Below, piece after piece: positions 8,344-10,722 of a DNA stretch of 10,722 nt. Each line of letters starts with the position of its first letter. Position 1 is the stretch's first letter. The stretch is from assembly GCA_934636465.1 (NCBI GenBank), contig CAKUAR010000037.1, forward strand, positions 1-10,722, in the 5' to 3' direction. Below the pieces are notes generated by a model. The model was not told the origin of the DNA. It worked only from the letters and a program-made list of their open reading frames with translations, and did no database searches. The DNA comes from an uncultured Muribaculaceae bacterium. Its GTDB lineage: Bacteria > Bacteroidota > Bacteroidia > Bacteroidales > Muribaculaceae. The translations under genes and the position numbers were made by a program.

Positions 8344-10326
8344 TCAAAACATCTTGTAGGTGGTGGTTAGCACCTGAAACTCTGTGCGGCGGTTGATTTG
8401 GTCGGCTGCCTCCTTGTTGGCGTCCGACAGCTTGCTGATAAACTCCTCGGTGAGCGTGTCGCCCTCCTTGAATTGTGGGTATAATCGGGCTATGCGTTTG
8501 GTCACCGTCTTTGGCTTGGTTTTGCCATAGCCGTGAGGTTTGAGCCTGTCGCGGCTCACACCATGCGCCACAAGGTAGTCAACCACCGACTTTGCTCGGC
8601 GGTCCGACAGCTTGTTGTTGTATTCGTTGCTGCCTATGCGGTCGGTGTGCGACGCCATTTCAATGGTGATGTTGGGGTTGTCTTTGAGCACCTGCACCAT
8701 TTCGTCGAGCGCTTTCTTTGACTCCTCTCGCAGCGATGCCTTGTCGAAGTCGTAGAAAATGTTCTCTATGACTTGCGGTTTGGTTATGGCGGCAAGCACG
8801 AAGTCAACGCCATATTCAGCATCGGTCTCGGTGGTGTCGCTGGTGAACTGTTGTTTGTTGTTGAGGTAGCCCTCGGCGCCAGCAAGCATCACATAGCTTA
8901 TGCCGCGCTTGAGGTCGAAACGAAATGTGCCGTCGGGTTTTGCCACGGCTTTTTGGTTGCTGCCGTCATTGCCCACAATGCGTATTATGGCGTTTGGCAC
9001 AGGCTCTTCGTCCTTGTCAATCACAGAGCCCGAAATCCAAATTTGCAGGTCGGGTTTCACGAAGCTGTATATGTGGTCGAATCCGCGTGCGTCGCGTCGG
9101 TTAGAACTGAAGAAGCCTGACTCGCCTTTGCCGAAAGTGATGCCGAAATCATCGTCGGCAGAATTGATGGGATAGCCCATGTTTTCTATGTTCCACTTGC
9201 CCGACGGCTGCAAAGTGGCCTTGAACAGGTCGAGCCCGCCGAGTCCGGCATGGCCGTCGCTGGCGAAATATAGCACGCTGTCGGTGCGGCTGTAAGGGAA
9301 ACGCTCGTCGCCGGGAGTGTTGATTTGGTCACCGAGGTTTTCGAGAGTGCCGCGGCTGTCCTTGATGTTGATGCGCCACAAGTCTTTGCCGCCTTGTCCG
9401 CCTGGCATATCCGACGAGAAATAAAGATATTTGCCGTCGGCCGACACTGCCGGGTCGCCAAAAGCCGATAGCGTGTCGCCAGTAATTTCAAGTTTCACCG
9501 GTGCGCTCCATTTGGCCTCGCTTCGCTGCGAAGTGTAAATTTCTACCGAAGTGCCGGAGTTGGGTTTGCGAATGGCACGTGCCAGATACATTGTGGAGCC
9601 GTCGGGAGAAAACGAAGTGATGCCCTCGTCAAACTCGGTGTTGAGCTCACCCTCCACTGGTTGTGGCCGCTGCCAGTTGCCTTTCTCGTCTTTTTTAGAG
9701 AAAAACACATCGCAGTTTTTAGTACCGGTGATTTCGCTTTTGGCTGTGCCGTTTGACTTCTCCGACGATGAGGTGAAATATAGCTGGTCGGCAGTGGCGT
9801 CGAGAAACATTGGGCAGAAATCAGCTCTTGTGGAGTTGAACAAAGTGGCGCTTTTTACCTCGTAGCGAGAGCCTTGCTCTTTGGTTTTTGGAGCTATGCG
9901 GCAACCGCGTATGCCAACTTTGGCTTGGAAATTGTCGGGCACTTTTTCAAGAAACGCCTCGTAGCTTTTTATGGCTGCGGAGTATTGACCCTCATGCTGC
10001 TGCGCTTGTGCCAGATAGAGCAGCGCCATGCTGTCGGGGTACTCATAGCGTATTGCATTTTGAAACGCAGCGCTGGTGCGTGACGCCTGGTTGAGCTTGC
10101 GGTAGCAGAGTCCGAGCTGATAGGCTATCTCGCCGCGCACTGGGCGTTCTTCCTTGCGGCTCATCTTGTTGTACCACTTGCGGTAGATTTTGGCGGCATC
10201 GAAATATTCGCCACGCTCAAAGGCGGCATCGGCATCGGTGAGCTTGGGGCCTTTGCACGATGTGACGGTTGCTGACGCAATCACGCCGGCGGCTATGGCT
10301 ATTATCAAATAAAGAAATTTCTTCAT
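8344..10326 (-). CDS. PorE-like OmpA-family lipoprotein (TPR, beta-propeller, CRD, OmpA_C)
   Basis: A 660-residue envelope protein. Residues 1-23 are a signal peptide ending in VTSC; Cys24 should be lipidated. Tetratricopeptide-like helices cover about 28-137. A PD40/WD40-like beta-propeller covers about 165-420, with repeated units such as SPDGSTMYLAR, SADGKYLYFSS and DLFKA. A carboxypeptidase-regulatory-like beta domain lies at about 428-512. An OmpA_C domain (520-655) starts at FYDFDKASL and retains the peptidoglycan-binding pair Asp562 (SHTDRIG) and Arg577 (DRRAKS), and ends with NRRTEF. This order and length match PorE of Porphyromonas gingivalis, which anchors the type IX secretion apparatus to peptidoglycan, but many Bacteroidetes have paralogues of this layout and no other T9SS gene is in view. 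It is the first gene of a probable three-gene operon. Confidence 0.88.
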   Translation of the reverse strand: MKKFLYLIIAIAAGVIASATVTSCKGPKLTDADAAFERGEYFDAAKIYRKWYNKMSRKEERPVRGEIAYQLGLCYRKLNQASRTSAAFQNAIRYEYPDSMALLYLAQAQQHEGQYSAAIKSYEAFLEKVPDNFQAKVGIRGCRIAPKTKEQGSRYEVKSATLFNSTRADFCPMFLDATADQLYFTSSSEKSNGTAKSEITGTKNCDVFFSKKDEKGNWQRPQPVEGELNTEFDEGITSFSPDGSTMYLARAIRKPNSGTSVEIYTSQRSEAKWSAPVKLEITGDTLSAFGDPAVSADGKYLYFSSDMPGGQGGKDLWRINIKDSRGTLENLGDQINTPGDERFPYSRTDSVLYFASDGHAGLGGLDLFKATLQPSGKWNIENMGYPINSADDDFGITFGKGESGFFSSNRRDARGFDHIYSFVKPDLQIWISGSVIDKDEEPVPNAIIRIVGNDGSNQKAVAKPDGTFRFDLKRGISYVMLAGAEGYLNNKQQFTSDTTETDAEYGVDFVLAAITKPQVIENIFYDFDKASLREESKKALDEMVQVLKDNPNITIEMASHTDRIGSNEYNNKLSDRRAKSVVDYLVAHGVSRDRLKPHGYGKTKPKTVTKRIARLYPQFKEGDTLTEEFISKLSDANKEAADQINRRTEFQVLTTTYKMF

Positions 10327-10444: not shown

Positions 10445-10530
10445 CAATTTTTGCATTGATTATTAAGAAGAGTTGCAAAAGTTTTTATTGCTGTTCGATA
10501 AAACTATTTTGAATCAGTAAAAAAAATTAG

Positions 10531-10629
10531 GGCTGTCACCTATTGCAGGAGTCAGCTCATTATGGTTACTTTGCTTTTGCACCAAAACATAGTTAACCAT
10601 GGGCAAAGTAGTCATTTTAGCGGACAGCC
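10531..10629 (+). promoter_or_regulatory. Fold-back structure around the transposase start
   Basis: The inner stem pairs 10562-10574 with 10603-10615: 13 consecutive pairs, two of them G-U, enclosing a 28-base loop. The outer stem pairs GGCTGTC 10531-10537 with GACAGCC 10623-10629. The start codon ATG 10562 sits in the inner stem, and the AGGAG at 10547-10551 lies in the internal loop between both stems. A competing 7-bp pairing, 10562-10568 with 10594-10600, crosses the inner stem. In RNA this would hide the start codon. IS10 and IS50 use comparable structures to block transposase translation from outside transcripts; applying that here is inference. Confidence 0.55.
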
Positions 10630-10722
10630 GCTATATTGTCAAGTGATAAAATTGCTTGACAAGTCAAAAGTTCTTCATGTCAGCCGGGAAAAAGGCTCGG
10701 AACGTTATGTCAAACGCTTCAA
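10562..10722 (+). CDS. Transposase N-terminus, IS4-like with DUF4372-type start (partial)
   Basis: An open frame of 53 complete codons that runs off the right edge. From residue 19 it reads HFSGQPLYCQVIKLLDK and then SREKGSERYVKRF, the pattern of the DUF4372 N-terminal domain that precedes the DDE catalytic domain in many Bacteroidales IS4-like transposases; the catalytic residues are outside the window. ATG 10562 has AGGAG ten bases upstream. However, the first 13 residues (MVTLLLHQNIVNH) do not look like the family. A second ATG at 10599 begins MGK in another frame; adding one A to the AAA at 10605-10607 would give MGKSSHFSGQP, a natural-looking family start. So the copy either starts at 10562 or has lost one base and is frameshifted just after its start codon. 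Recognition is by memory of the family. Confidence 0.7.
   Translation, partial: MVTLLLHQNIVNHGQSSHFSGQPLYCQVIKLLDKSKVLHVSREKGSERYVKRF

Follow-up and report, generated by a model that had tools for sequence, protein, structure and literature searches.

The last 237 nucleotides (nt) of a 10,722-nt contig of an uncultured Muribaculaceae bacterium (contig CAKUAR010000037.1, analysed at its full length and called the window here) make up the left end of an insertion sequence (IS) that continues past the end of the contig. Judged by its sequence, this locus is the left-end control region of an IS4-family element encoding a DUF4372 transposase, and the window holds a decayed copy of it. The element is probably self-silencing, in much the manner of IS10. 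For its intact relatives with GQP, GQS or GTS near the transposase N-terminus, we consider it rather likely that they carry an IS10-like face-to-face module, in which an antisense RNA is combined with a shield against read-through transcripts. The signals concerned are two facing promoter boxes, a hairpin (P2) and a stem that abuts the start codon (P3).

The boundaries of the element and its gene were established with 63 related loci from a scan of genome contigs. In relatives' copies having both ends, the boundary of the left terminal inverted repeat (IRL) was seen together with a matching right end and 9-bp target duplications, the consensus inverted repeat of these copies being TATTGCTGTCCGATAAAA(C/G). 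The duplications were read by eye in L011, L021, L024, L028 and L034; none of 9 bp was read in L007. The window's own right end lies outside the window, and right-end and duplication evidence comes from relatives; the IS end in the window was therefore placed at 10486 on the basis of their both-ended copies. Among 33 homologous short proteins found, 27 were aligned, and 26 of these start with MGKSSHFSGQPLY or a close variant; in P0025 a start of this type is preceded by a longer N-terminus. An ATG occupies the position of the window's ATG 10599 in 58 of the 63 loci, the exceptions having another codon (L056, L061, L062) or being out of register (L040, L066). ATG 10562, which an earlier note on this DNA had taken for the transposase start, is thus situated upstream of the gene. 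Near codon 3 the window copy is frameshifted by one base; intact copies were found among relatives. The window's own 53 codons, cut off by the window end, reach an E-value of 4.4e-4 against DUF4372 (20.8 bits, below the cut-off of 25). The full-length relatives L011, L141 and L121 match the IS4_1 model NF033592 with 201-253 bits (cut-off 115) as well as DDE_Tnp_1 (PF01609; E 1e-28 to 1e-30), and they are IS4-family proteins with DUF4372 and DDE_Tnp_1.

Stems, boxes and terminators, with their positions and their conservation, are evident from sequence. The -7 element of Bacteroidetes reads TAnnTTTG; in F. johnsoniae its T falls at -12 and its G at -5 (PMC6847099, in excerpt). In the GQ subgroup, which comprises the proteins with GQP, GQS or GTS near the N-terminus and includes the window, an exact TAnnTTTG is found on the antisense strand opposite codons 2-5, at one fixed place, in 49 of 70 elements; outside that place it has three further occurrences on this strand from -60 to +60. 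Random synonymous codons would give the exact box in 1.4 of 28 lineages, and it was found in 17. The first lineage rule let frameshifted main-clade fragments count as lineages, and a stricter recount with later loci added kept the result: 19 of 33 lineages (1.7 expected) and 9 of 16 strict lineages (0.6 expected). In the 17 later loci at least five of six key positions were matched in all 17 (3.9 expected) and the box was exact in 5 (0.7 expected). These loci are relatives and provide replication, not independent evolution. The predicted antisense start lies opposite the A of the start codon.

Reading on along the antisense strand, P2 is followed by a T-rich run. A terminator was scored there in 24 of 30 GQ lineages (5.1 expected), in 13 of 16 strict lineages (3.3 expected) and in 15 of 17 later loci (3.4 expected). 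The hairpin itself covaries: in 35 of 44 distinct leaders (9 were left out of the count) 92% of the cells are paired, both sides have changed in 8 of 12 pairs, and the covariation score was reached by 0 of 500 shuffles.

On the sense strand, a -7 box matching at least five of six key positions upstream of the start was found in 18 of 23 clusters (5.6 expected), 9 of them exact (0.4 expected), in 11 of 21 loci of a second draw (3.9 expected) and in 15 of 17 later loci (3.1 expected). Most B. thetaiotaomicron mRNAs have a 23-nt leader, and the -33 consensus is TTTG at about -33 (PMC7366714, in excerpt). The median predicted mRNA start of GQ-type lineages is at -20, which is inside the P3 loop, and the native mRNA would therefore lack the P3 5' arm. 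Among 33 lineages the antisense strand has the exact box in 19 and the sense strand in 10, which fits a putative weak transposase promoter facing a stronger antisense promoter. Convergent promoters with overlapping 5' ends were found as sequence motifs in the GQ-type relatives.

The third element, P3, pairs better with its own arms than with arms swapped between relatives. In 43 leaders the mean energy was -6.54 vs -3.49 kcal/mol, a difference reached in 0 of 2000 permutations, and in 39 representatives of diverse DUF4372 elements, 5 near-duplicates having been removed, it was -9.70 vs -5.94 kcal/mol (0 of 20000). Control open reading frames (ORFs; 80) gave -6.67 vs -5.74 kcal/mol. Compared to shuffled upstream sequence, a start-abutting stem was significant at p 0.05 in 12 of 23 clusters, in 9 of 21 loci of the second draw and in 7 of 17 of the third, and in 16 of 143 control ORFs. 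The leaders of five relatives fold with z scores of -5.9 to -6.7, a further pairing (P1, see below) closing P2 and P3. The same layout was seen again in later samples and among distant DUF4372/IS4 elements.

For the family, a fold formed solely in outside-initiated RNA and covering the start region was found in silico. Opening the start region in 23 cluster representatives was predicted to cost 3.6 kcal/mol for the native mRNA, 8.2 for outside-initiated RNA and 5.2 when the upstream sequence was shuffled, and accessibility differed at p 0.05 in 11 of the 23. For the window copy the corresponding values were 4.5, 8.5 and 6.2 kcal/mol (p 0.12). The earlier note had proposed a read-through protection like that of IS10 and IS50, with a start codon less accessible in transcripts entering from outside; the idea as such finds support, but from other stems and with ATG 10599, not 10562, as the start codon. 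In the predicted native mRNA of the window, positions 10618-10633 (TAGCGGACAGCCGCTA, codons 6-11) form a local 6-bp hairpin.

From these signals we infer the transcription starts, the existence of the RNAs and the repression. A weak promoter, with a -7 box overlapping the P3 5' arm, would start the transposase mRNA some 20 nt upstream of the start codon; with its start within the P3 loop, this native mRNA would be unable to form P3. On the opposite strand, a better -7 box in codons 2-5 would give rise to an antisense RNA of about 80 nt that starts at the start codon, runs back through P3 and ends at P2; its overlap with the mRNA would take in the first ~20 nt and the initiation region. RNA arriving from a neighbouring gene would have both P3 arms (and P1), by which the start codon would be closed.

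Several results weigh against this module. The start-abutting stem misses p 0.05 in 11 of 23 clusters, in 12 of 21 loci of the second draw and in 10 of 17 of the third, and the control ORFs, too, lie above 5% and show a preference for their own arms (z -4.1). In the representative of the window's cluster (48 members) the stem has p 0.21, and the case for P3 in that clade therefore rests on the swap test; start accessibility in the same representative has p 0.15. A covariation count for P3 on a plain MAFFT alignment failed (33% paired), in our reading due to a 3' arm staggered by one or two bases; since this count gave no support, the partner-swap tests were used. Wobble pairs in GQ elements (P2, 33 G-T vs 44 A-C; P3, 26 vs 38) do not tell the folding strand, and a terminator was scored for P2 on the sense strand as well, in 14 of 30 lineages (5.8 expected), 7 of 16 strict lineages (3.1 expected) and 10 of 17 later loci. 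The main clade's sense box matches five of six key positions, and the window copy is spoiled.

The data could also be read as a shield alone, with P3 (and P1) hiding the start in outside-initiated RNA, the antisense -7 match as a by-product of codon choice, and P2 doing nothing but terminate or fold. Indeed, start-abutting stems also occur in other, non-GQ DUF4372 lineages, where the antisense box is exact at that place in 1 of 63 elements and antisense terminators are mostly lacking (4 of 17 lineages, 1.8 expected). We regard this reading as unlikely, as the antisense box is seen more often than synonymous codon choice would give (9 of 16 strict lineages, 0.6 expected) and goes together with the antisense terminator in the same subgroup.

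Another explanation operates at the DNA level and starts from P1, the complementarity between the IRL and codons 5-11, which is kept in relatives. Codon choice favours it beyond the synonymous expectation in 17 of 24 chosen elements (p 0.05) and in 6 of 17 later loci, and swapped arms did as well as the own arms in 529 of 20000 permutations. Within the main clade P1 shows no covariation, and it does not form in the minimum-energy fold of the window. A second IRL-like core (site 2), noted in L011, L119, L150 and others, is located about 350 nt into the gene (about +324 to +360), in a reading frame differing from that of site 1 in codons 5-11. A profile over 21 elements has only these two regions standing out: z is below -1.5 in 19 and 20 of 21 for the site 2 windows at 324 and 336 nt, and in 14 and 11 of 21 for the site 1 windows at 12 and 0 nt. 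In L139 and L150 the inverted repeat has changed and both internal sites have changed with it, including an amino-acid change at site 2. These observations, with a second site far from the start codon, would suit an internal transposase-binding site that brackets the promoters together with the IRL and serves self-repression. L143, with a changed IRL and unchanged internal sites, and L159, in which site 1 is lost, do not fit, and P3, the antisense box and the terminator are left unexplained, which makes the DNA-site explanation decidedly improbable as an account of the whole. Because of the second site, P1 may serve as a binding site for the transposase, as an RNA stem, or as both. For an inner helix between IS nt 18-34 and codons 2-5 the support was weak (55 of 5000), and we make no claim for it.

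A broader proposal would unite both levels: a large Bacteroidetes group of IS4/DUF4372 elements would possess a compact two-level RNA silencer, made from the promoter code of the host, with facing sigma-ABfr promoters across the start codon, the antisense one within codons 2-5, the hairpins acting as antisense-RNA body, terminator and read-through shield, and two internal inverted-repeat cores, evolving with the ends, letting transposase bind around its own promoters. We put this forward tentatively, as a possibility with the odds against it.

The earlier note had ascribed the shield to other pairings, a stem of 13 consecutive pairs and a 7-bp stem joining the supposed element end at 10531 to early coding sequence. 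The 13 pairs between 10562-10574 and 10603-10615, two of them G-U, are present, and the fold of 10525-10640 includes this stem and beats 200 of 200 dinucleotide shuffles (z -3.2). Likewise, 10531-10537 (GGCTGTC) is the reverse complement of 10623-10629, with 10531 internal to the element that begins at 10486. Swap tests revealed no covariation of either stem in relatives: for the 13-bp pairing 43 distinct leaders gave -4.48 kcal/mol with own and with swapped partners (992 of 2000 permutations as good), and for the 7-bp pairing -5.71 vs -5.69 kcal/mol (784 of 2000). Over 38 lineages the 13-bp pairing had p 0.066. When the outside-initiated RNA 10470-10660 was folded, P3 took the place of the 13-bp stem, which is largely two similar -7 boxes face to face. 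Both stems were ruled out as functional elements, as there is no gain over swapped partners; a lack of covariation among related elements is an outcome that the earlier note itself had named as refuting. The version with start ATG 10562, an element from 10531 and these two stems as the shield retains next to no probability, being already contradicted by the wrong start and end, the lack of covariation and the replacement by P3 in the longer fold; in its favour are the 13-bp stem in the fold of 10525-10640 and a comparably strong pairing in 3 of 42 relatives. The predicted antisense promoter and terminator were absent from that note; they account for the layout TACTTTGC being common to both strands. 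A DNA pattern of this layout had four matches in viral contigs, with translations lacking a DUF4372-like start.

The samples behind these counts were reduced as follows. From the 63 loci 10 identical ones and 10 without a recognised IRL were removed; L061 was removed from the swap tests, and L059, L061 and L062 from the inner-helix test. In the 38-lineage test L178 was put in the subgroup by a loose rule, and it was excluded from the stricter recount. The second draw of 30 loci lost 2 from genomes already used, giving 28, and 7 more (one with a short upstream sequence, the others without a usable profile match or start), giving 21. The third draw of 30 loci lost 12 from genomes already used and 5 with the gene start missing; the remaining 13 were joined by 9 fetched stretches, and from these 22 two with short upstream sequence, two with no start and one outside the subgroup were removed, leaving 17. 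The features of the window are listed in Table 1.

Table 1 Positions of observed and predicted features at the left end of the DUF4372 element in the window
Feature	Positions	Strand	Basis or remark
Presumed left target-site duplication, 9 bp	10477..10485	.	IRL position and 9-bp duplications of relatives
IRL, true left IS end	10486..10504	+	TATTGCTGTTCGATAAAAC
P1 5' arm, within IRL	10490..10503	+	Complementary to 10615-10628, one G-U, one mismatch
U-run of predicted antisense terminator (A/T tract on +)	10520..10529	-	Terminator counts in GQ lineages
Predicted antisense RNA, ~80 nt	10520..10599	-	Box, P3' and P2' with U-run in relatives
P2 hairpin, arms 10530-10540 / 10548-10558	10530..10558	.	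Predicted antisense-RNA terminator
Possible -33 element TTG (weak candidate)	10543..10545	+	20 nt before the -7 box
P3 5' arm	10562..10568	+	Only in outside-initiated RNA; fold, own vs swapped arms; overlaps the Bacteroidetes -7 promoter box
13-bp stem of the earlier note (10562-10574/10603-10615)	10562..10615	+	Present in fold, not conserved
Transposase promoter -7 box TTACTTTG	10566..10573	+	5/6 key positions; consensus PMC6847099, in excerpt
Predicted native mRNA start, in P3 loop	10578	+	Box start +12, F. johnsoniae -7 numbering, from excerpt
P3 3' arm	10594..10600	+	Reaches into start codon; fold, own vs swapped arms
True transposase start codon	10599..10601	+	Homologues and relatives begin here
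Transposase gene 5' part (DUF4372/IS4), cut by window end	10602..10722	+	One-base frameshift near codon 3
Antisense -7 box remnant, codons 2-5, spoiled in window copy	10604..10610	-	Exact in relatives
P1 3' arm / internal terminal inverted repeat-like site 1, codons 5-11	10615..10628	+	Synonymous-codon bias toward IRL pairing

Variants of the leader were seen in some relatives. In the lineage of L168, L172, L146 and L155 the start-abutting stem encloses a second hairpin and is not preceded by it; in L168 and L172 this enclosed hairpin is terminator-like, with the two parts nested differently. Upstream of the start, a more distant element (L180, L186) has the Shine-Dalgarno-like sequence AAGGAG; it also has a GGTCTG/CAGACC pairing directly next to the start codon, part of which falls beyond the tested region. 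Both loci fail the stem test. Alloprevotella tannerae harbours, in one genome, nine loci at different sites (L021-L024, L036, L043, L044, L063 and L064) with one identical leader, and in some of them the element body is shorter; this is suggestive of recent transposition. DUF4372 elements are common, with a match (E 0.001) in 104 of 295 genomes sampled from the order to which this species belongs. Next to the element, the minus strand of the window (8344-10326) encodes a 660-aa protein with TPR, PD40, carboxypeptidase-regulatory-like and OmpA domains, an order that we take to resemble that of the type IX secretion protein PorE.

No match to Rfam at gathering thresholds was obtained for the window or 14 relatives. 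Plasmids and phages gave none in protein searches with a 40-residue piece, nor did plasmids in a DNA search; viral contigs compared with the protein alignment gave 10 stretches, none of them confirmed. Among the matches listed from the open-licence literature (the best 15 of 26, 12 of 63 and 12 of 24) no title or abstract opening describes this arrangement, and DUF4372 was named only in a UniProt update. Antisense transcription was found to be enriched in transposase genes by RNA-seq of a gut community, in a paper of which the text examined does not name the DUF4372 family (PMC4555090). If the proposed module is real, the dormancy of DUF4372 elements would be set by antisense RNA and a read-through shield, and IS10-type control would have been built from Bacteroidetes promoters and without Shine-Dalgarno sequences.

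The nearest known systems are the antisense control of IS10 and the stem-loops of IS200 and ISPpu9. IS10 has a convergent promoter layout, and in IS10 and IS50 transcripts from outside fold back and close the initiation region, which stays open in the native mRNA. The DUF4372 element resembles the RNA-IN/RNA-OUT system of IS10/Tn10 in antisense control from convergent promoters, here by prediction. Unlike IS10, it uses sigma-ABfr boxes, has no Shine-Dalgarno sequence and places the antisense promoter inside codons 2-5; the sequences are unrelated, the RNAs are predicted and a link to Hfq is without evidence. The fold-back of IS10 and IS50 is matched by closure of the initiation region in outside-initiated RNA and not in the native mRNA, with the difference that the DUF4372 stem abuts the start codon instead of hiding a ribosome-binding site, and that its 5' arm overlaps the -7 box. 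In the IS200 leader one stem-loop ends impinging transcripts and another occludes translation (PMC3196728, in excerpt); that element has a transposase of another family, and P2 scores more often as an antisense-strand than as a sense-strand terminator (24 vs 14 of 30). In ISPpu9 of Pseudomonas putida transposase translation is limited by structure in the leader, over which an antisense RNA extends (PMC8450116, in excerpt). That system differs in that translation is aided by the antisense RNA, and in that the native mRNA itself carries the structure.
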